Positions 2,835 to 54,137 of a DNA stretch of 64,000 nt are shown here, piece by piece. The stretch is from Siderastrea radians. Its lineage: Eukaryota; Cnidaria; Anthozoa; Scleractinia; Rhizangiidae. The DNA lies in NCBI GenBank assembly GCA_964017195.1, contig OZ024892.1:11189801-11253800 (forward strand), read 5' to 3'. Made by a program: the position numbers and the translations under genes. The notes below the pieces were generated by a model. The model did no database searches. It had not been told where the DNA came from and saw nothing but the letters and a program-made list of their open reading frames with translations. Every line of letters begins with the position of its first letter. Position 1 is the first letter of the stretch.

Positions 2835-3009
2835 GTCTACTACCGATTGCAATACTGGTTCAAGCCTAGAGCATAGCTGTTAGCTAGTATTCACAGTTAA
2901 ATAATCACTACTCTAGAAGGTAACTAAGCACAGTAATAAATGTAAAGAAGATCCTCGCAGTTATTAACGCAACTTATGCAGTTGCGAAAAGAAAGCCTGA
3001 AAAAATCAG

Positions 3010-3080
3010 GCTTGCCGGGATTCGAACCCTGACCTCTGCGATACCGGTGCAGCACTCTAACCAATTGAGCTAACAAGCCA
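3010..3080 (-). tRNA. tRNA-like head of SINE, inverted copy
   Basis: The minus strand folds as a cloverleaf of about 71 nt: acceptor GGCTTGT/GCAAGCC, D arm with AGCTC...GAGC, and a T arm with GGTTCGAATCCC (a perfect B box). Loop position 33 is C and not U, and A31-C39 does not pair, so it is more likely a pol III promoter of a SINE than a functional tRNA. The triplet at the anticodon position would be GGT (Thr). Confidence 0.6.
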
Positions 3081-3223
3081 GCTGGGAGCTGGTCATTAAA
3101 TTGGTTCGTAATATACCCGGGAAAGATGAAGATGAAATTAGGAATATATGAAATTCATATCATAATTTCATCTTCATCTTTCCCGGATATATTACGAACC
3201 AATTTAATGACCAGCTCCCAGTT

Positions 3224-3294
3224 GGCTTGTTAGCTCAATTGGTTAGAGCGCTGCACCGGTATCACAGAGGTCAGGGTTCGAATCCCGGCAAGCC
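3224..3294 (+). tRNA. tRNA-like head of SINE
   Basis: Plus-strand partner of the inverted copy at 3010-3080, with the same acceptor stem, A box (TTAGCTCAATTGG) and B box (GGTTCGAATCC). Two of the five anticodon-stem pairs are lost (CTGCA against CACAG), which argues against a working tRNA. It is followed by TGATTTTTTTTTT, which would stop pol III. Confidence 0.6.
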
Positions 3295-3366
3295 TGATTT
3301 TTTTTTTCAGGCTTTCTTTTCACAACTGCATAAGTTGCGTTAATAACTGCGAGGATCTTCTTTACA

Positions 3367-24570: not shown

Positions 24571-25329
24571 AGGGACTGAATTTTGGCGGTAACGGCACCT
24601 CATACCAAACTGCACTAACTCCTCGGTGATTTGGGAAAGGGAGATAGATCAGTAGTGGACTTTCAATACTTCGATGAGTTCAAGGTCATCTTCCTGTAAT
24701 TTTTCAGATGTCAGGCCTCTTTAGGTTTTGCTAATTTTTGCATTTCGTCGCAGTATCGTCGCAGTATCTGTGCCATGCGGTCACGCAACTCGTTCGCAAA
24801 TTGTGTAAAACTCCGCGGAATATAACCCGTAACTTGTTTACCCCCTTCACTCAGACCCTCAGTGATTTTAAAAAAAAATTCTGTCAATGATGGAGCATTT
24901 TAAATCTTGATCTAAAGCGACTCCTGGACGGTAACTCCTTCCAAACTTGTTAACTTGTTAACTTTTCTCAGCTCCTTCACTGCAAAAAATTAAAGACTTT
25001 TGTGCGGCAAAACCTGAAAAGTCCCAGAGCACGTGAATAAAACATGTTCGAATGGCGTCAAGAACCTTGTCAGTTTCGCGACTTAACTGACAAGGTTTCA
25101 TTGGTCTAAAGTGACACGTAACCAGACAAAACCGTTAAGTTTAAAAAAGTAAACATACGCGAAAAAATCGTCTCGCTTCAGGGTTGAACGAAAATGGTAG
25201 TATTTGCGAGATACGTAAAAAAAGAACTTATTCAAGTGTAACTGATCCATTAGAGCGCGCGCTCTGACGCGTACTGTCCAATTACTTAGGCATGACGCGT
25301 ACACTGTCCAATTACACCAGGTGTACGAA
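24571..25329. other. No recognisable gene
   Basis: Only short frames. The last 100 bases carry degenerate words of the satellite that follows (for example TGACGCGTAC...CTGTCCAATTAC twice at 25264-25316). Confidence 0.4.
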
Positions 25330-27255
25330 GAACGCTCAACACTCCAGTAGAAGGTTTGTCTGTATTGTCCGACTGCTAAGCGTGACTGCATCAAGAGCTC
25401 TCAGAGAACCAACGTCAAGCTTGACTGTATTGAACGGTTAATAAGCGTGAGAGTACGAAGAGCACTAAGCAATCGAGGAAAAGCGTTGTCTGTATTGTAC
25501 GAGTAATCAGCGTGAGTGTGCGAAGAACTCTCAACAATCGCAAAACAGTCTTGTGTGTATTGTACGAGTAATAACCATAAGTGTGCGAAGCACTGTCAAC
25601 AATCGTGCAACAGGCTTGTGTATTGTACGAGAAATAACCGTGACTGTACGAAGAGCTCTCAACAATCGCACAACAGGCTTGTGTGTATTGTACGAGTAAT
25701 AAGCGTGAGTGTACAAAACGCTCTCAACAATCGCACAACAGTCTTGTGTGTATTGTACGAGTAACAAGCGTGAGCGCACGAAGCGCTCTCAACAATCGAA
25801 CAATAGGCTTTACTATTTCATGAGTAATAAATGGTGAATAACGAACAGCTTTCAACAATCGCGCAACAGGCTTGTGTGCATTGTGCGAGTAATACGTATC
25901 AGTGTGCGAAACGCTATCAACAAACACGCAAAGGTTCGACTGTTCGACGAGTAATAAGCGCGAGTGTACGAAGCGCTTTCAACAATCGCACAAAAGGCTT
26001 GGTGCGCGATTGTTGAGAGCACTTCGTTCACAACTTCTTACTTTTAAGCTTAGTACTCGTACAATACACACAAGCCTGTTACACGATTGTTAAGCGCGCT
26101 TCGCACACTTTACAACCACTTTTACTATAAAGAAGCGTAAAAAAGAAAATGGTTGTTTTAATGTAAAGTGTGCGAAGCGCACTTAACAATCGTGCAACAG
26201 GCTTCTGTGTATTGTACGAGTACTAAGCTTAAGAGTACGAAGTGCTCTCAACAATCGCGCATCAAGCCTTTTGTGCGATCAAGCCTACTGACACTCACAG
26301 TTATTACTCATGAAAACAAACAAGCTTGCTGTGCGATTGTTGAGCGAGCTTCGCACACTTACGCTTATTATTCGTTAGCCTGTTGTGCGATTGTTGAGAG
26401 CGCTTTGCAGTCTCACGCCTATTACTCGTACAATACATACAAACCCGTTCCACGATTCTTGAGCGCGGTTCGCACACTCACGCTTATTACTCGTACAATA
26501 CACACAAGCCTGTTGTGCGATTGTGAGAGCGCCTCGCACACTTACGGTTATTACTCGTACAATATACACAAGCCTGTTGTGCGATTGTTGAGAGCGCTTC
26601 GTACACTCACGCTTGTTACTCGTACAATACACACAAGCCTGTTGTGCAATGGTTGAGAGCGCTTCGCACACTTACGGTTATTACTCCTACAATACACACA
26701 AGGCTGTTGGGCGATTGTTGAGAGCGCTTCGTACACTCACGCTTATTACTTTTACAATACACACTGGCCTGTTGTGCGATTGTTGAGAGCACTTTGCAGT
26801 CTCACGGCTATTACTCGTACAATATATACAAGCCTGTTCCACGATTGTTGAGCGCGCTTCGCACACTCACGCTTATTACTCATACAATTCACACAAGCCT
26901 GTTGCACGCCTGTTGAGAACGCTTCATCACACAAGACTGTTGTGCGATTGTTGAGAGCGCTTCGCACACTCACGCTTATTACTCGTACAATACACACAAG
27001 CCTGTTGTGCGATTGCTGAGACCGCTTCGTACACTCACGGTTATTACTCGTACAATACACGCAAGCCTGTTGGGCGATTGTTAAGAGCTCTTCGTACAGT
27101 CACGGTTATTACTCGTACAATCCACGCAAGCCTGTTGGGCGATTGTTTAGAACGCTTCGTACAGCCACGGTTATTACTCGTACAATACACACAAGCCTGT
27201 TGGGCGATTATTAAGAGCTCTTCGTACAGTCACGCTTATTATTCGTACAATACAC
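25330..27255. repeat. 65-bp satellite array with orientation reversal
   Basis: The unit is about 65 bases and contains GTGTGTATTGTACGAGTAAT and CTCTCAACAATCGCACAACA. From about 25330 to 26015 copies read in the plus direction (about 10 units). From about 26010 to 27255 most read in the minus direction, with short switches near 26100-26270. Divergence between units is moderate. Open frames in both directions within it follow the repeat and do not indicate genes. Confidence 0.85.
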
Positions 27256-27881
27256 GCTTGTTTGTGAAAAAAAATAGAAAAATAGTAGATTCGCTAGCAA
27301 CCGTTGTAATGTAGGTGTTGAGTAATGGGATCCCTCGTTAAAGGGTTCCCAAATCACCACTGAAAACAGTGGGTATAAAGGGTGGGGAAATTGTGTGTGT
27401 GGGGAGGACGTTGTGAGTCAAAAAATAAACAAATTAAATAAATGGTAAGTAAATTGTTTGTGAAAAAAGGAGAAAACAAAAAGTAAATACATGAATAAAA
27501 TAAATTGAATAGAAAAGAAATTCGTGTAACATTAGTAATAATAATAGTAAAAGAGGTTACAAAACAAAAAGGTAAGAATAAAAGGTGGAAAAAATTAGAA
27601 GCATGGCATTATAGAAATTAGGAAAGATGGTTGAAGGAGGTTAAATAGATATGGTTGATAAGTATTTGACAAGGGCGTGGGTATATGCTACGTTAGTTTT
27701 GATATGTGGGATTGAAATCTTATAGGCAAAGTTAACCTGGCTTGGGGATAGTGAATGCCCAGATTATGGATGGTTATAATTATTAGGGGGATTGTTTGGT
27801 TATAAATGAGGAAGTACATGAAAACTACTTATTTTGGACAGGAGGTGATATTATTGGGTTTGCAATTGATACTAAAGAATA
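27256..27881. other. AT-rich stretch, no gene
   Basis: A/T-rich with AAATAAA words and no recognisable frame or repeat structure. Confidence 0.45.
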
Positions 27882-32307: not shown

Positions 32308-35300
32308 TCACTGGTAGCCATAGGGGTAGGTGTTGAAGGTGCGGGGATCGATGACTCTTTTGTCATATACCAGCTGGTACCATTTGTGTTGAGGATAGGT
32401 AGCCAAACTGTAGTTTTTCGGTTCCCGGACAATGTGGTGACTTTTGGTGACTTGGATTTCGCGTGGTTTGGGAAGGAGTTTCTGGATTTCATCTTGGACA
32501 TTCTGACGCATGACGTCGTAATTCAACTGGGTGTGTCCTTCACTGTTGAGTCGGAAGCCTCTGACCTTGCATTCCACCTTTCCTTTATTAGTAGTATACC
32601 CGTAGTTCTTGGGTCCTCCACTGACAAATTCTTGGATGTATTCATCATCAGCTAATTCGGAGTCGAAGTCCCCTAGATAGGAACCCAAGGTAGGTTGGAA
32701 TTGAGTGGGTGTTTCCTCCAGGTAGATGACGGAGTCGGTGTCAAAGTAGAGGACTCTTTCCCCTAAGGCTTCCAGGGCGTTATACAATTTAAGGCGGGCG
32801 TGGCAGGTGGTGAAGCAGGCCACAAAAATGTTGAGGTTGGGTGAGACGCGGATGTCCTCTTTTGGTTTTGGTAATGTACTTCGACGATGTTGTTATTGAT
32901 AACGGACACGTGACGTACGTCTAAGGCATCGGTATCCAAGAAACAGTGGAAGGCATGAGGATCATCAAAGGCTTGAATTTGGGTCTTGTTGAGGCGTTGT
33001 CCAAACTTGCCCCACATAGAGTTCAACATCAGCTTGGCTAATGTTCGTAGGCCGGGGTTGTATTCGATGTTGTTGTATTCCAACTGGATACCCTCCTTCT
33101 CATAGTAATCCTGAATGTACTTCCTTTTTTCTTCTTCGGACATGTTTTGTTTAGGCCACCCACTAGCTTCTTGTTTGATTTTAAGCCAGGTGTTGACATA
33201 ATCGGCGAAGAGGCCCTCACAGGTTTGTTCAAAATGCCAGACTTCATAGATGTATTGGACTTGGTACCCCAATTCGACGGCTTTCCTTAATTCGGGACTG
33301 CACCAGGTACTGGTGAGGGCGCGTTGTTCGTCGGGGTGAGGGCAATGATAGGATCTGTCCAAAAGAGGTTTGTCCATTTCTTCTTCCACACAACGGGCAC
33401 AGAGGGGAAAGAGCAGTTTGTCGTCATGACGGTAAGGCAGCACGGGATGGTACAATTCACGGGGAGGCAGGACTTTGCATTGGATTAGCCCAAAGTACTG
33501 AAGAACGTCAGTGTGACCCGGTTGAGAAAGGATGGTGGGATGTCCTTTGGGGTAGGTGGAGGTTTTGTTCACCCACGGGTACAAGGAGGTGACATCGATG
33601 TAGTGAATTTTTTGGCCGGGGGTAATATGATGGTAGAGTTTGATGGCATTGGTACGACCTCCACAGAAAGCGTCCCGAGGTTGAAGAGGTTGGATAAAGT
33701 TGAGTTCCCGGACGAAGGAGTCGATCTCTGGTTGGGTTTTTAGTAGGTGCTCCCATTCACATCCCCACATTTGAATGACGTTGTACCCTTGCTTGGTAAG
33801 CTTTTGGACTTTGTCTTGGGTGACGTCATAGAGGTCCTGCATGGTTCGATCATAGTTGCGGGGATGTTTTTCGTAGCGATGGGGATAACAGGTAGGGCAT
33901 CCGTGGGTGAAACACCCTTGAAATTCGTAGACGGTGTGGGTGTCGGGGCAATAACCATCCACATGGAAGTTGGTCCCGGGGATCTTATACTCGCCTTCAT
34001 TTCGGACATGTTGTATGTACTGACGATGAGGGTCTGGATTGGCACTGGCCAAGAGATCGGCGGGGGTAAGATCTTGGAGGGCGCGTTGACGTAGTTGGTG
34101 ATCGCACCAGGTTAACCAGTGAAGGGCTGGGATGGACTGGTTGATGTTGTTTCTCCACCCCTTATGACCGGCGGGTTCGCTGGCAATACTGTTCGGGATC
34201 ATCCGGTTCATACGTAAATCTCGATTACAAGCCGAGGCAATGGTGACGTGATCGAAGGGATTGAAGCCTGTTAAGTCTTCAAACATGCGTTTGAAAGTCA
34301 GACATCCTTGTTTCAAGAGTCGTACATCGGAGCTGCAATAGTCCAACAACTCTTTTTGGAAATTAAACACCACACCCTGGTCGCGTTGTTCTTGATGCCA
34401 GGTTTCGAAGGCTTGTCTTCCTTCGAGTGACATGGTCTCAGGCATGTAGTAATCGCGTGAGGGGAGGATGCCCACGTAGTTTTGATGCTCATCACCGGGT
34501 ACGTTGAACTTGTGTGGGAAATACCCTTTGCAGAGTTCTGTCAAACCAAAGGTTTTGGGAAACGCGGAGAGGGGCATCTGGAAGAAACTCATCGAATCAA
34601 TGAACCGGATGCGATCGTGCTTGATTTCTAAGAGTTTACATCCGTTGCGGAGTTGTTGGACGATGCGGTTGTTAACATAGTATTCTTGGATGATAAAGTA
34701 CCCATCGTACCCTTGAAAATTATGAGCGATGACATTGACTTGACGGGTATCGTGGAGGGTCAAGGTATCCAACCATTCCAGAAAGTCACGGATACAGGTG
34801 GGACCTGGGAAAGGCTTGGGTTCATTGTTGTCTTCGGTTTCGGCCACGACGAGATTCGCAATGTGTTTTTCGCGGGGTTGCATGGCTTCGATATCAAAGA
34901 AGACGTGTAAGGGAGGCAGGTCTTCCTCGTCCTCGGAGGAGGCATGGGGTTCCGCGGCGGCGGCGGCACCTCGTTTGGCGCAAGGGCCTTTTTGACGGGT
35001 CCTCTTTCTCTTCTTTTCGTCTTGAGGTTTGGGGCTCTTTGTATAAAACAACGGTGGTCGTCAGCGTGGACGTACTGATGACAAGACGGGCAATCCACGT
35101 GGTAACAACGGTGACGTTGAATGCGGGACAAGCCCACATTTTGTTGATAACAGTGAGGGCATCGGTGTCGTTGAGAGCACACGGAGGACTGGAGGTCCGT
35201 GGCGGGTTTGCCAGCATGGGTCTTGCTGGCATGGGCTTCCAAACACGCGGGTCCGAAAAAGTCCCGATGACACGACTCGCAACGTTGAGTGGCTTTGAGG

Positions 35301-36487
35301 TGTCGGGGGTAAGCATGTTGAAAGTCTGGACAATCTTTCTGTCGACAGGCTCCGCACACCTTGGTCTTGGTGCATCGATGACGTCCCTCGGTGTTGTAGG
35401 GTTTCCAACAATCCGCACACACATAACTGGACCCGAAAAACCCCGGCAAACGAGTGATCACGTCGTAATGGTCTTGGTTGTGCAACAGGATCAGTTGTTT
35501 GTCTCGTAGGGGTCCAAACGTCGTGATGTGGAACGATCGATGCGCATCCACCAGGAGGATCTGATAACCGGTGAGGGACGGAGCTTGACTGAATTGGGTC
35601 AAGGCATCATAGCCACAAGGACCGAAGGGTACCTTGGCTTCGTGATGAAGTAAGAGAGCCATTTCTTTTTGAATTTTCCCTCCATGTCGAATGGATGACC
35701 ATTTCGGGTGCTGGTCCACGCGAGCTTTGGCGGTGACAAGGGCTCTGGCACAGCAGAGTTGATCGTCGTTGGTAATCCGGATGATCGAATGGGAATTTTT
35801 TCTCAACAGCTCCATGGTGGGATGACCTGGTTTCCCACGACGGGGTCTGCCGGTGCCTTGAGGAGCATGATGGACTTGAGTGATGGAGACTTGAAAGGAG
35901 TCATCCATTTCAAATTGTTCGTTGCTGTTGAGGGCTTGGGCTAAACGTTGGAACAGGGCCTCCACACGCTCTGTGTCTCGACGCCATTCACCTGCACGTA
36001 ATCCCCAACCCTGAAAATTATTGTGGAGCCTGTCCGAGGCGATGGTAAAGTACAGACGATCTTGATCGTGGAGGTCGGGGGTGGTGGTTAACACTTGATC
36101 GACGGCTCGACGTAATCCATCTTGGAGAGCTTGGGTAATGTTTTGACCTGGAATCAAGGTCCCCCTTTGACGTAACTGGGTCTTGAAATGACGTTCTTGT
36201 ACCCCCATGCGATCACTCCTCCGATTCACAAACGGTTCTAAGTCAAATTGGAAGGTAACTTGCGCAGAGGGATCCAATCCACCCCCGCTTTGTTCCCATT
36301 GGTCCAAGGCCTCTTCACAAATGTCGTCGTCACTGTCGGCCATGTTTTCGGTCGAAATCAAAGGTCCCACACAGGAATTTGTGTCGTCTTCTGAATCACT
36401 TATCTCCAAACCAAGCATTGACATGATCTCACGTGTAGCGAGGCCGCTTGGCCCCGCCACATTGTCGTCGTCTTCGTGAGAGGACAT
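32308..36487 (-). CDS. polB: Protein-primed family B DNA polymerase, interrupted by two frame breaks
   Basis: Three overlapping minus-strand frames make one polymerase of about 1,390 codons. N-terminal part (ATG 36487 to about 34990): LCCARALV and a later HYDVI, reminiscent of an OTU-like fold, then a Cys/His-rich zinc region. Middle part (about 35050-32870): exonuclease motifs FFDIEAM, HNFQGYDGYFI and LLDYCSSDVRLL; an endonuclease-like insertion with YEFQGCFTHGC; palm motif A YIDVTSLYPW; and motif B KLMLNSMWGKFGQR. C-terminal part (to TGA 32308): motif C DTDSV and KVRGF. The enzyme would replicate the linear genome by protein priming at the inverted repeats. The frames disagree by one base near an A5 run at about 34989-34993 and again near A4 runs at 32860-32869 (minus-strand sense). 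These could be disabling mutations, assembly indels or recoding. A TATA-like CATAAAAAC lies at about 36519-36527. Confidence 0.9.
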
Positions 36488-40042: not shown

Positions 40043-40209
40043 GGTCGACCCGTCAACAGACGTTGAAGGGCTTTGTTTTGTTTGATGGCATCCCGCGACT
40101 CTTTATAGCCTTGACGGGTATTGCGTTTCAAATCTTGCCACCAACCCCCACCTTGTTGTCGTCGTTTCCTTTTTCTGCGTCGTCGTCGTCGTCGTCGTTG
40201 GACGGCCAT
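40036..40209 (-). CDS. Small Arg-rich virion protein
   Basis: 57 codons from ATG 40209 to TGA 40036. MAVQ is followed by a run of nine arginines coded mainly by CGA, then RKRKRRQQGGGWWQDLKR and NKALQRLLTGRPW. Short basic peptides with a GGG-Trp step occur next to structural genes in Polintons. A role in DNA packing is inferred from charge. A TATA-like CATAAAAAG is at about 40242-40250, some 35 bases upstream. Its stop overlaps the start of the next small gene. Confidence 0.65.
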   Translation of the reverse strand: MAVQRRRRRRRRKRKRRQQGGGWWQDLKRNTRQGYKESRDAIKQNKALQRLLTGRPW

Positions 40210-40814
40210 GGTTCTAAGAGTGTGGGACTAGGAGGGAGCGGCTTTTTATGGATCCAATAATCTTTGGGTCTCAAGGGACGAGGACATCCATCTACATAGC
40301 ATAAGGCTTCCAAAGGTTGGTACACAAAATGACCATGGTAATCTTGCACACATCGTTTGGGTAACGGAGGGGTGAAATCCACAATGGTATCATCCAAGGT
40401 TTGCATCTTGATTAAAAATCGTTCCAGATCCTCCAAGGGAATACCCCGCACATGGGTTTTCAATTCGGTCAAGGCTTTGGCATAGGTGGTAAACGCAAAT
40501 CGACTCATGGTCACTTTAAATCGGTATTGTTTAAAATCATTCCATCCTTTGACCACGGTGCCTACGGCCGCCAAACAGGCTACCAACGTACTATTTTCCA
40601 AAAGCGGACCCGCAATCATGCCTGCAGCCATCAGGAGTAATGCCATACCATTGAACAAGGCATTGATACACTTGTAATGATTCAACATTTTTCGATAACA
40701 CCACCATTGTTGATGATAAAAAGCATACAAGGAATCCATCCGTTGTAATAATTCCGGGGGGAAGGGAAGTCCATGATGTTTCGATCCATTCAATAACGAC
40801 ACGATGGTTTTCAT
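40128..40814 (-). CDS. Membrane protein of the structural block
   Basis: 228 codons from ATG 40814 (a GTG two codons earlier is in frame). Residues about 48-90 form two adjacent hydrophobic segments (NALFNGMALLLMAAGMIAG and LVACLAAVGTVVKGW), followed by a conserved-looking helical block (FAFTTYAKALTELKTHVRG), a Cys-containing region and an acidic tail (NDDDDDDAEKGNDDN). This matches a two-pass membrane protein common in Polintons whose role is unproven. The last 27 codons overlap the Arg-rich gene in another frame. Confidence 0.7.
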   Translation of the reverse strand: MKTIVSLLNGSKHHGLPFPPELLQRMDSLYAFYHQQWWCYRKMLNHYKCINALFNGMALLLMAAGMIAGPLLENSTLVACLAAVGTVVKGWNDFKQYRFKVTMSRFAFTTYAKALTELKTHVRGIPLEDLERFLIKMQTLDDTIVDFTPPLPKRCVQDYHGHFVYQPLEALCYVDGCPRPLRPKDYWIHKKPLPPSPTLLEPWPSNDDDDDDAEKGNDDNKVGVGGKI

Positions 40815-40816
40815 CC

Positions 40817-41749
40817 TCACGGCGAAACACGGGACGAAGAGGTTTGTACGCTCGGTGCTCCTCCTTGTTTATAACTGGTCACAATGCTATTGGTCATGGT
40901 GACATTAGCAATTTCACGTCCTTGGGCCAACTGTTCTTGATCTTGTAACAGCATACGTAAACGTCTTTGTAAATCCGCTTGACGCAAAGTACGAGGGGGT
41001 GGAGTCTGAGATCCTCGAGGAGTGGATGGACTGGAGGAAGGTGTCCTAGGTGTACCGGGGAAAAGTCGTCGTCGTCTACCACGTCGACCACCACGACGGC
41101 CACCACCGCTACCACCACCGCCACCACCACCTCCTCCACCAGCACCACCTCCACCACCACCACCACCACCACCACCACCACCACCACCACCAGCACCAGC
41201 ACCACCAGCACCAGCACCACCAGCACCACCACCAGCACCACCAGCACCCCCAGCACCCCCAGCACCACCACGCCCACCACCACTACCACCACGTCCACCA
41301 CCTCTAGTCCTAGGACCACGACGACGTCCCCCACCTCCATCACCACTTCCCCCACGTCCATTACCATTACCCCCTGCACCCGCTGCTGTCCGAGCACCTG
41401 CCACTGTTCTTCTTCGAGGATCGGGTGACACGCGTGCGCTTCCCCAAGTAGGTGGGCTGTCCGGGGAAGACGGTGGGGTGGTATGTATGCTACGGTAGGA
41501 TTGACTTCCTGGACTTCCTACCCCGGCTGGGGAAGAGGTCTGCATAGTGGGGAGAGATTCCATAAACTGAAATAGGGGCTCGGCTTCCATTTCCTCCATG
41601 GCGACGTCGAGAAGGCCTTGGTCTCCCGTGAAATACAAATCTTGCCAGGCCCTTGGGGACATTTGATTGCCGCTGGCCGCCCCCACCCCCGCAGGGGACA
41701 CGGTATCGTACGATTGCGGAGGTTGACGGTCATCATCATCATCGGCCAT
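40817..41749 (-). CDS. Gly-rich structural-block protein with conserved C-terminus
   Basis: 310 codons from ATG 41749; a TTG 9 codons earlier is not needed. Acidic start (MADDDDDRQPP), Ser/Pro-rich region, then a long Gly/Arg-rich segment (codons about 120-240) coded by GGT/GGN repeats at about 41060-41370, and a C-terminus with a helix (LRMLLQDQEQLAQGREIAN) and TNSIVTSYKQGGAP, a terminal motif seen in Polinton proteins at this position. The poly-Gly tract probably varies between copies. A CTATAAAG box at 41785-41792 lies 36 bases upstream. It abuts the membrane protein gene by 2 bases. Confidence 0.7.
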   Translation of the reverse strand: MADDDDDRQPPQSYDTVSPAGVGAASGNQMSPRAWQDLYFTGDQGLLDVAMEEMEAEPLFQFMESLPTMQTSSPAGVGSPGSQSYRSIHTTPPSSPDSPPTWGSARVSPDPRRRTVAGARTAAGAGGNGNGRGGSGDGGGGRRRGPRTRGGGRGGSGGGRGGAGGAGGAGGAGGGAGGAGAGGAGAGGGGGGGGGGGGGGGGAGGGGGGGGGGSGGGRRGGRRGRRRRLFPGTPRTPSSSPSTPRGSQTPPPRTLRQADLQRRLRMLLQDQEQLAQGREIANVTMTNSIVTSYKQGGAPSVQTSSSRVSP

Positions 41750-41786: not shown

Positions 41787-42440
41787 TTATAGTCGTTTTT
41801 GATAGGTGCGAGTCCATCCTTCGTCTTTTAACAGGTGACTCAACAAACGTTGTTGATCGGAGGAGGCGGGGTGTAAATCCAAGACCAAATACCCATACGG
41901 TCGTGTGGTGGCTTGATGAAACGTCTCCAACGTGTCTTTCCAAGTGGTAGGAAACGATTGAAGCATGACATTGCGTACCCCTAATTGATCTCGGGGGCTC
42001 TTGAACGCCACGATGTAATGGGCATTGCGGGATATACTTTTGGCATAGCGACCCACGGGAAACATGTCTTGGCACAAGTATAGGACGGTCATCCCTTGAT
42101 GATGTGAATGTTTGGTGAATAAATCCAACACGCGTTTATCGTGACTCCCTTCGTCCATTAAATCATCCAAGACCAGGACCCCATGTCCTTCAGGAAACCA
42201 TTGGACCAATGCCTCATGATCGGGAATCCCTTCGTGAAACACCACCCCTTGATCTTGCATGCTTCGAAATCGATCTTGCCAGGCCCCATAACAATAATGC
42301 CTTTGGGTCGGTGGGGTTTCAAACAACTCTGGGTTGTCTACCAAGAGTTTTTCCGTAAACACAGTTTTACCACGTCCCGAAGGACCCACCACCAAGATAG
42401 AGGAAGGAGTATGAAAACGAAACGGTTTCCCCGTTTGCAT
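41787..42440 (-). CDS. FtsK/HerA (A32-type) genome-packaging ATPase
   Basis: 217 codons. Walker A GPSGRGKT (residues 19-26), Walker B VLVLDD (about 88-93), and a sensor region with LYLCQDMF and SRNAHYIVAFKSPRD, the pattern of Polinton, adintovirus and virophage packaging ATPases that drive DNA into the capsid. The ATG at 42440 is preceded 34 bases upstream by AATAAAAAGG (42474-42482), a TATA-like box, which falls in the trailer of the tRNA-like gene. The start is therefore well placed. Confidence 0.92.
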   Translation of the reverse strand: MQTGKPFRFHTPSSILVVGPSGRGKTVFTEKLLVDNPELFETPPTQRHYCYGAWQDRFRSMQDQGVVFHEGIPDHEALVQWFPEGHGVLVLDDLMDEGSHDKRVLDLFTKHSHHQGMTVLYLCQDMFPVGRYAKSISRNAHYIVAFKSPRDQLGVRNVMLQSFPTTWKDTLETFHQATTRPYGYLVLDLHPASSDQQRLLSHLLKDEGWTRTYQKRL

Positions 42441-42459: not shown

Positions 42460-42469
42460 AAAAAAAAAA
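42460..42469 (-). terminator. T10 pol III terminator of the tRNA-like gene
   Basis: Ten A on the plus strand, so T10 on the RNA-like strand, 13 bases after the acceptor end. The predicted primary transcript is about 110 nt. Confidence 0.75.
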
Positions 42470-42482
42470 GGCACCTTTTTAT

Positions 42483-42573
42483 TGGAATCGGTGGGACTCG
42501 AACCCACGCACAATCCCCCTACACCTATTTTTTCGGGGGGATCCAAAGGCTCTACCCACTGAGCTACGACTCC
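42483..42573 (-). ncRNA. tRNA-like pol III gene with abnormal anticodon region
   Basis: Minus-strand RNA of about 91 nt. Acceptor stem GGAGTCG/CGATTCC (7 pairs, one G-U), T8-A9, D arm GCTC-AGTGGGTA-GAGC, T arm GTGGG-TTCGAGT-CCCAC, discriminator A: all canonical. A box TAGCTCAGTGGGTAGAGC and B box GGTTCGAGTCC are intact. Between D and T arms lie about 44 bases instead of about 23. They can fold as a weak anticodon stem TTTGG/CGAAA (one mismatch) with U33 and triplet CCC, or as a stronger 7-pair hairpin ATCCCCC/GGGGGAT with a 16-base loop. It is either a non-standard tRNA or a pol III small RNA built on a tRNA scaffold, as adenovirus VA RNAs are. It lies between the ATPase and protease genes. 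Confidence 0.75.
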
Positions 42574-42601: not shown

Positions 42602-43141
42602 TTAATGATTACATTGATGATACGGATGACAACACAGTTGATACCATCTGGCCTCTTGGCCTACAATCAATTGTTGAAGGCGTTGACCCGCTTGATGGTC
42701 ATTGCTTACATAATCATGATCCGAAAACTCATTTAAAAACTCTTGCAAGGTTCGTCCACGGGCTTTGGCTTTCAAATACAACAAGGCGTAATCACCACAA
42801 CTCTTGCTTGAAATGGCTTGGAGGGACTTGCCATTGGTCACTACATACTTCCAATGTTGGACGATCCAATCTCGGAACGGGGTAGCTTGCACGTACGTGT
42901 CCATGGGCAAAGCATAACTGTCCAGGACTTCACACACCTTTCCATCGGTCCACACCGCTAACCAATGTTGTCCCGGTTGATCGTGTGGGTCCGTATTCAC
43001 AATGTACCCTTGGGGTTGGGTCTTGACAGGAGTCTTGGGTAAACGATCACAGGCCACCGTCCCGTAAAAGACAGGGTTCAATTGGGGGTCGTCTCGGGCT
43101 AAATAATCCAATTGCACATTATTCAAGGCCACATGTTCCAT
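42602..43141 (-). CDS. Adenain-like cysteine protease (capsid maturation)
   Basis: 179 codons. GQHWLAVW supplies His 59, EVLDSYALP supplies Asp 74, LQAISSKSCGDYAL supplies the oxyanion Gln (108) and catalytic Cys 115, in the order of C48/adenovirus-type proteases found in Polintons. It would cleave structural precursors during virion maturation. GG-X-type motifs in the small basic proteins of this element could be substrates, though that is a guess. The ATG lies 3 bases after the capsid gene stop. Confidence 0.9.
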   Translation of the reverse strand: MEHVALNNVQLDYLARDDPQLNPVFYGTVACDRLPKTPVKTQPQGYIVNTDPHDQPGQHWLAVWTDGKVCEVLDSYALPMDTYVQATPFRDWIVQHWKYVVTNGKSLQAISSKSCGDYALLYLKAKARGRTLQEFLNEFSDHDYVSNDHQAGQRLQQLIVGQEARWYQLCCHPYHQCNH

Positions 43142-53725: not shown

Positions 53726-54137
53726 GGACTTTGGACTTTGAGCCCGCGTTTTCTCAGCGGTTTTACTCCACCTTGAGCCCACGATCCCTTTTTCAAACTG
53801 CTCAGCGGTTTCCCATCCTAAAACACGTGACTTCCGGTTGTATGAACCTGCGATCCCTTTTTCCTACTGCTCAGCGGTTTCCCATTCTAAAACACGTGAC
53901 TTCCGGTTGTATGAGCCCGCGATCCCTTTTTCCTACTGGTCAGCGGTTTCCCATTCTAAAACACGTGACTTCCGGTTCCCATGACGTCACTTCCGGTCAT
54001 GTGACTTCCCCTTGAGCCCACGATCCTACTGGTCAGTGGTTTCCGTTACTAGGGGCAACCCAACAACCAATCAGAACACAAAAGCTCTCGACCAATCAGA
54101 AGCCAGAACGAGTGCTATGTGGGCCCACTTTACTACT
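53726..54137. repeat. Right terminal inverted repeat with three to four modules
   Basis: Holds tandem modules of about 69 bases, each with TGAGCCCGCGATCCCTTTTT or a variant, CTGCTCAGCGGTTTCCCAT, and ACACGTGACTTCCGGTT, plus one TGACGTCA (53981-53988). It has more module copies than the left TIR. The outermost 100 bases share only the AGTAGTAA start and short blocks with the left end. Contains TTGGTTGT/ACCAATCAG (inverted CCAAT) words twice at 54063-54105. Confidence 0.85.

Follow-up and report, generated by a model that had tools for sequence, protein, structure and literature searches.

The window analysed here is a 64,000-nucleotide stretch of the Siderastrea radians genome (OZ024892.1, positions 11189801-11253800), and we searched for DNA copies of its features within the same 805-Mb genome. 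It contains a provirus flanked by inverted repeats near 31.7 and 53.98 kb that encodes a type B DNA polymerase (DNA_pol_B_2 at 3.8e-46), an rve integrase (5.6e-13, with a chromodomain match just under the cut-off), a packaging ATPase and an adenain-type cysteine protease (PRO). This combination of genes and repeats identifies the provirus as a Polinton/Maverick; capsid genes are not among the parts identified. Polintons occur widely in animals as virus-like DNA elements and are probably kin to adenoviruses. PRO and the ATPase are consecutive genes on the minus strand separated by 161 nt, and this gap holds a tRNA-like gene. By the mechanical list of open reading frames, neighbouring gaps on that strand measure 2 nt and 10 nt, with one 4-nt overlap. 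The features of the locus, in the order in which the minus strand is read, are as follows.

31722-53979, minus strand: host Polinton, approximate limits, ~22 kb (terminal inverted repeats, DNA_pol_B_2, rve integrase)
42602-43141, minus strand: PRO, adenovirus-type cysteine protease, the upstream gene (Pfam PF00770, E 0.0023, below its cut-off)
42483-42573, minus strand: tRNA-like RNA gene body, from acceptor to discriminator base A (Rfam tRNA, ARAGORN, 118 of 122 ATPase-selected loci)
42567-42573, minus strand: acceptor stem 5' strand GGAGTCG (read from the sequence)
42555-42566, minus strand: A box TAGCTCAGTGGG, overlapping the D arm (TRGYNNARNN(N)G matched in 117 of 118 copies)
42549-42564, minus strand: D arm, stem GCTC/GAGC (sequence and Rfam; pairs counted over 90 copies)
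42508-42548, minus strand: hypervariable anticodon region, 41 nt in the window copy (68 distinct sequences in 118 copies)
42536-42543, minus strand: 5' strand of the long hairpin, GATCCCCC (from a fold constrained to keep the acceptor, D and T arms)
42512-42519, minus strand: 3' strand of the long hairpin, GGGGGATT (same fold)
42491-42507, minus strand: T arm GTGGGTTCGAGTCCCAC, stem GTGGG/CCCAC (identical in all 87 parsed copies out of 90 and, by eye, in the other 3)
42494-42504, minus strand: B box GGTTCGAGTCC (GGTTCGANTCC matched in 116 of 118 copies)
42484-42490, minus strand: acceptor stem 3' strand CGATTCC (sequence and pairing counts)
42470-42482, minus strand: 13-nt conserved trailer ATAAAAAGGTGCC (first 14 nt the same in 83 of 87 parsed copies)
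42460-42469, minus strand: T10 run, a terminator of pol III type (every one of 118 copies has four or more consecutive T within 40 nt)
41787-42440, minus strand: A32-type packaging ATPase, the downstream gene (weak Pfam PF04665 and PF13191 matches, below cut-off)

The ATPase has 1358 homologues at E <= 0.001, some with a precomputed PF04665 assignment; among the 120 matches listed, the sole named source is Oculina patagonica, a stony coral, at 65-66% identity. Elsewhere in the late block, a 230-residue reading frame (minus strand, 40128-40820) matches exosortase and the two-TM effector domain SLATT_1 weakly, below the cut-off in both cases. The polymerase region (minus strand, 32763-36487) consists of two overlapping reading frames in different frames, only one of which contains DNA_pol_B_2, so the polymerase gene of this copy may be interrupted. 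Three 69-bp tandem copies lie within the terminal inverted repeat region (53774-53980), and outside the Polinton the window holds a partly inverted array of ~65-bp tandem repeats (25296-27358). Two tRNA-Thr(ggt)-like sequences (43.0 and 38.8 bits) at 3000-3303 form an inverted pair with arms of 144 nt, 97% identical and 16 nt apart, perhaps a tRNA-derived foldback or SINE pair.

In a cmscan of the window, minus-strand positions 42573-42483 score 47.7 bits with the Rfam tRNA family, whose gathering score is 29, and ARAGORN predicts a tRNA-Gly(ccc) of 91 nt at the element. The acceptor stem GGAGTCG/CGATTCC forms seven pairs, one of them G-U. An earlier note, made from the letters of this window, had described a tRNA-scaffold gene inside the provirus that keeps canonical acceptor, D and T arms together with both promoter boxes (A and B) and a T10 run, and the Rfam match, ARAGORN and the sequence itself all agree with it. 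Ordinary class I tRNAs have 23 nt between the D and T stems. The same note's overlong, hairpin-forming anticodon region is also present in the window copy: the region is 41 nt long, and with the acceptor, D and T arms enforced ATCCCCC/GGGGGAT forms an eight-pair hairpin, including a closing G-U pair. Folded without constraints, the 91 nt take a minimum-energy structure other than the cloverleaf.

For copies related in DNA sequence, we scored the best 40 of 795 candidates, all at least 94% identical, and cut out 30 as loci. Relatives of PRO and the ATPase lie beside the element in 30 of 30, and no copy away from the two genes was found among these 30 loci (from the best 40 of 795 candidates scored), a set that leaves room for solitary diverged copies. 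A second, broader sample selected by ATPase comprised 122 loci: the best 30 and 40 more of 150 matches, 20 drawn from 150 matches to a distant homologue, and 32 drawn from 150 matches to a divergent ATPase and picked mostly for 216-residue ATPases. Apart from one identical pair these are distinct (121 sequences). The element lies directly upstream of the ATPase in 118 of the 122, in 84 distinct versions, and is always oriented as the ATPase is (118/118; 116 by motif, L104 and L108 by eye). Four loci lack it. L146, L171 and L172 form a sister lineage in which 22-27 nt separate the protease stop from the ATG of the ATPase and no tRNA is present; L166 has a different upstream region. A 34-nt exact pattern spanning the T arm, the acceptor 3' strand and the start of the trailer occurs 547 times in the genome, versus 0 for its reversed control; given these counts and the same position in 118 of 122 loci, the element is more than chance. 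It is a resident of one Polinton lineage. The earlier note would have yielded to absence from related Polintons or to a random SINE or pseudogene; in this one genome related Polintons carry the element, and it does not behave like a randomly captured SINE or pseudogene.

At five of the loci (L024, L026, L031, L033 and L037) the ATPase is ~78% identical to that of the window and the protease 92.7-93.8% identical, so recombination breaks may fall near the tRNA-like element.

We compared diversity across 29 loci that carry the element together with the ATPase (L041, overlooked by the first fit, was left out of the 30); loci had been ranked by ATPase protein similarity, which should bias fourfold sites little. 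The mean pairwise difference over the 50-nt scaffold was 0.022 versus 0.182 at ATPase fourfold sites, a rate about 8-fold slower, and reached 0.317 in the anticodon region; the upstream spacer gave 0.132 (with the L048 spacer mis-bounded) and the downstream stretch 0.065. A column-wise version gave 0.022 for the scaffold (28 loci) against 0.180 for fourfold sites, with none of 100000 fourfold bootstraps as low, and 0.016 for the trailer. Protease rates (fourfold 0.161) were set aside because stretches had been compared without alignment, with at least L048 out of register.

Pairing is preserved as well. Across 90 copies, 4 of 1440 cells in the acceptor, D and T stems hold a broken pair. Four acceptor pairs vary and mostly still pair: A-U/G-U at 3:70, G-U/G-C at 4:69, U-A/U-G at 5:68 and C-G/G-C at 6:67, the last with a two-sided change in L108 and mismatches in L062 and L112. 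All seven acceptor pairs are intact in 110 of 118 copies; the eight imperfect acceptors include L160, L162 and L165, which lack the 5' strand, and L168, a register shift caused by a T-arm deletion. The T arm has a few variants within the L143-L174 loci. All parts of a type 2 pol III gene are present almost throughout, with an A box in 117, a B box in 116 and a run of at least four T in all 118 of 118 copies, as expected from the earlier proposal that promoter and terminator had been retained. The T run varies from 4 to 12 in length across the 118 copies and begins 13 nt past the discriminator in the 87 parsed copies, and about equally far in the L143-L174 loci. A coding reason for the conservation, in the form of an upstream reading frame or an N-terminal extension of the ATPase, was rejected because the 65 distinct armed regions fall into all three frame classes by length and T-run lengths vary. 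These rates and pair counts, taken from sequence comparison, show strong purifying selection on the tRNA-like body, boxes, trailer and T run at the PRO-ATPase junction.

In the related loci L160, L162 and L165 a short deletion took the acceptor 5' strand, and the A box, B box, arm, trailer and T run stay. They constitute a natural test of the need for an acceptor.

The anticodon region behaves quite differently from the slowly evolving scaffold. It is usually self-complementary and takes 68 distinct sequences in 118 copies, of which 103 carry an arm and 15 are armless, with an 11-nt junction in its place (3 of the first 90 copies and 12 of the last 28). The replacement of the anticodon arm that the earlier note proposed stands for the window copy, but not as a fixed hairpin, since the region is hypervariable and sometimes absent across copies. 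The replaced arm, whose hairpin the note stressed, is unlikely to be the functional core because 15 of 118 copies do without it and it diverges faster than fourfold sites. Short spacing between A and B boxes may weaken a pol III promoter, and the armless copies have 20 nt between the two.

A class II-like anticodon stem is possible in 47 of 50 distinct arms, many of them closely related, versus 11.4 in shuffles (sd 2.9, maximum 21, n=500), which suggests descent from a class II tRNA; the arm presumably resembles tRNA-Leu(UAA). This stem has five pairs (four in a few arms), and its five-base 3' strand comes in eight different versions. We also built an ATPase tree from 60 loci, 30 of which were DNA-selected. 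On this tree, in which 23 of 51 inner branches are weak, the four arm classes need 13 changes (minimum 3, shuffled mean 19.8) and class B alone needs 8 for its 9 rows. Arms therefore seem to reassort or to change fast. A working tRNA would show a five-pair stem, a 7-nt loop and a constant anticodon; in the 50 distinct arms the loops range from 4 to 8 nt and vary. The element is not kept for decoding, given that its anticodon region is free to vary or vanish, and a slow scaffold joined to a hypervariable, sometimes absent anticodon region makes either a decoding tRNA or a dead SINE or pseudogene very unlikely.

Traces of the element also appear outside this genome. Among 229 ATPase proteins, N-terminal extensions resembling a translated element occur in P0003, P0004, P0006, P0008, P0121, P0122 and P0126 and, by eye, in P0123; the evidence here consists of translations throughout, and many of the 229 have no N-terminal extension and hence are uninformative. 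The sequences in P0122, P0123 and P0126 differ from the window's type. Signature matches in P0222 and P0223 fall inside the ATPase and were discarded as chance. P0139 and P0146 run from protease into ATPase without a tRNA signature, and P0051, from another lineage, translates a sequence that reads like a tRNA-Asp gene and then a T run ahead of the ATPase. The P0051 lineage was not found in the window's genome, where the best identities are 63-70%. The translated fragments suggest that the element is present in other assemblies too, from proteins that may or may not belong to other species.

Five protein or alignment scans of viral contigs returned no relatives, and phage records gave no ATPase match. 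A D-arm pattern scan picked out 13 viral contigs, 12 with an ARAGORN tRNA gene at the match and one (L099) without, and these were rejected. The scan of bacterial and archaeal genomes returned a single locus, L089, with a 51% ATPase match and no tRNA. The Polinton-type relative of the ATPase sits there on a contig (JACCHT010000004.1) deposited as part of a Bathymodiolus symbiont MAG, probably bivalve (mussel) DNA in a bacterial assembly.

We consider it rather probable that the element belongs to one Polinton lineage as a resident gene for a non-coding RNA, a putative pol III transcript acting through its acceptor, T and D body and not through the hairpin. Host RNA polymerase III would transcribe it from the internal promoter and stop at the T run; RNase P, RNase Z and CCA addition would recognise the tRNA-like body; and the resulting 60-90 nt RNA would work through that body rather than the hairpin, most likely as a tRNA mimic engaging tRNA-handling host factors. 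It could act in trans, in the manner of VA RNAs or TMERs, or in cis as a boundary or processing signal; the trans role is the one we infer. Several observations count against this explanation: L160, L162 and L165 persist as a small multi-copy lineage without the 5' acceptor strand, the armless copies have short A-B spacing, a sister lineage is free of the element, and the free fold is not a cloverleaf.

A possible but clearly less probable alternative is that the element is cis-acting punctuation, excised by RNase P and RNase Z from a joint PRO-ATPase transcript or separating two units through its pol III complex, with the excised RNA having no job of its own. The identical junction and sense orientation in 118 of 118 copies agree with such a role, and a single common origin would give the same result. 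Space also argues for it, as the 161-nt gap exceeds both the 22-27 nt of the element-free lineage and the tiny gaps elsewhere in the block, and acceptor pairing is mostly preserved. Furthermore, tRNA identity and the anticodon arm seem exchangeable, judging by the armless copies and the tRNA-Asp-like translation of P0051, although the latter is a translation in which the upstream gene is not seen. However, every copy has the T run although plain processing could do without a pol III terminator, and the acceptor stem, which a boundary would not require, has all its pairs intact in 110 of 118 copies. Excision would also leave the processed ATPase mRNA capless.

An adenovirus VA-like decoy, in which the extended hairpin is the effector that blocks a double-stranded RNA sensor, is an analogy that we regard as improbable. 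In its favor, armed regions are more stable than their mononucleotide shuffles (mean -10.98 versus -7.30 kcal/mol, 0/200 shuffles), and among 50 distinct arms own halves pair better than swapped ones (6.82 versus 6.22 of 8, 0/10000, by a statistic that ignores relatedness). Two-sided hairpin changes separate L016/L017 and L157, each from L011, and L073 from L087. But the arms hold no more pairs than shuffles do (8.5 versus 8.8), for 6 of the 50 the shuffled versions fold better than the arm itself, and the longest uninterrupted helix is 10 bp, falling to only 3-4 bp in 20 of 65 distinct arms. The region is moreover hypervariable and absent from 15 of 118 copies, and in the cmscan of the window tRNA alone reached its gathering score, with no VA family doing so.

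It is very unlikely that the element is a passenger, a captured tRNA pseudogene or SINE amplified with its provirus. Such tRNA-derived repeats are common, and the window itself holds the tRNA-Thr-like pair near 3.0-3.3 kb, but the scaffold is slow where neutral sites are fast and its changes mostly preserve pairing. A tRNA-derived SINE would disperse independently, and we rejected it because all 30 DNA-selected copies, cut out from the best 40 of 795 candidates, sit beside PRO and the ATPase.

Weakest of all, and scarcely credible, is a working translational tRNA, either of class II or intron-containing, by which the virus would adjust decoding: the class II-like stem of 47 of 50 distinct arms would suit it, and codon compensation has been proposed for the tRNA genes found in Polinton-like viruses (PMC12220804), but the 4-8 nt loops are copy-specific, ARAGORN assigns Gly, Gln, Ser or no amino acid over 30 loci, and the 15 armless copies of 118 make it untenable for them. 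An intron-spliced tRNA was rejected since some copies are armless and the 5' strand of the hairpin lies ~4 bases off a normal anticodon stem, at too great a distance from the D stem.

Beyond the resident RNA gene that we favor, we tentatively offer a wider and, in our view, rather unlikely generalization from these sequences. Animal Polintons may have made the tRNA body a part in its own right, so that its identity and its anticodon arm could be swapped or lost; at the protease-ATPase boundary, its occupancy by pol III or its cutting by RNase P/Z would organise viral gene expression, and the hypervariable, self-complementary arm would be free space that reassorts between lineages.

PubMed Central titles and abstract openings, a set outside of which subscription journals and preprints lie, yielded no tRNA-like or pol III RNA gene in animal Polintons. 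If our favored reading is true, a pol III-type RNA gene kept by selection would be an undescribed kind of Polinton gene within the literature searched. Adenoviruses and Polintons are probably akin, and the gene is a possible parallel to the adenoviral VA RNAs. The element may also serve as a natural experiment that shows which parts of the tRNA body remain necessary to a virus that has given up decoding.

Among known systems, the tRNA-like processing signal of the MALAT1/mascRNA type has an abnormal anticodon arm and is recognised by RNase P and RNase Z within a pol II transcript, whereas the Polinton element keeps its A and B boxes and T terminator. Pol III-dependent viral non-coding RNAs are named in abstracts on gammaherpesviruses, and the TMER/vtRNA genes of murine gammaherpesvirus 68 (MHV68) are likewise tRNA-bodied genes of an animal DNA virus. 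TMER4, which gives rise to a 74-nt processed vtRNA and for which tRNaseZ processing is mentioned, is described as a tRNA followed by two stem-loops (PMC11499242); the Polinton element instead has a 13-nt trailer and then the T run, and the part of it that varies is the anticodon arm, within the body. Adenovirus VA RNAs are described as transcribed by pol III from boxes A and B and ending in a U run, with a hypothesised origin from a tRNA gene (PMC7589676), and the Polinton element resembles them in its boxes, its T/U-run end and its presumed tRNA ancestry. The two differ in architecture: in the VA RNA account of the same source, a terminal stem, a central domain and an apical stem stand in place of a tRNA body and the apical stem is required for PKR binding (PMC7589676), whereas the Polinton element keeps the body and can dispense with its arm. 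Finally, 558 tRNA genes are reported from a collection of Polinton-like viruses and virophages (8300 genomes according to its methods), that is, inside elements of the same broad group; those genes are given amino-acid identities, with few in cryptophytes (PMC12220804). The Polinton element, by contrast, occupies a single fixed junction and no longer has an anticodon that can be read.
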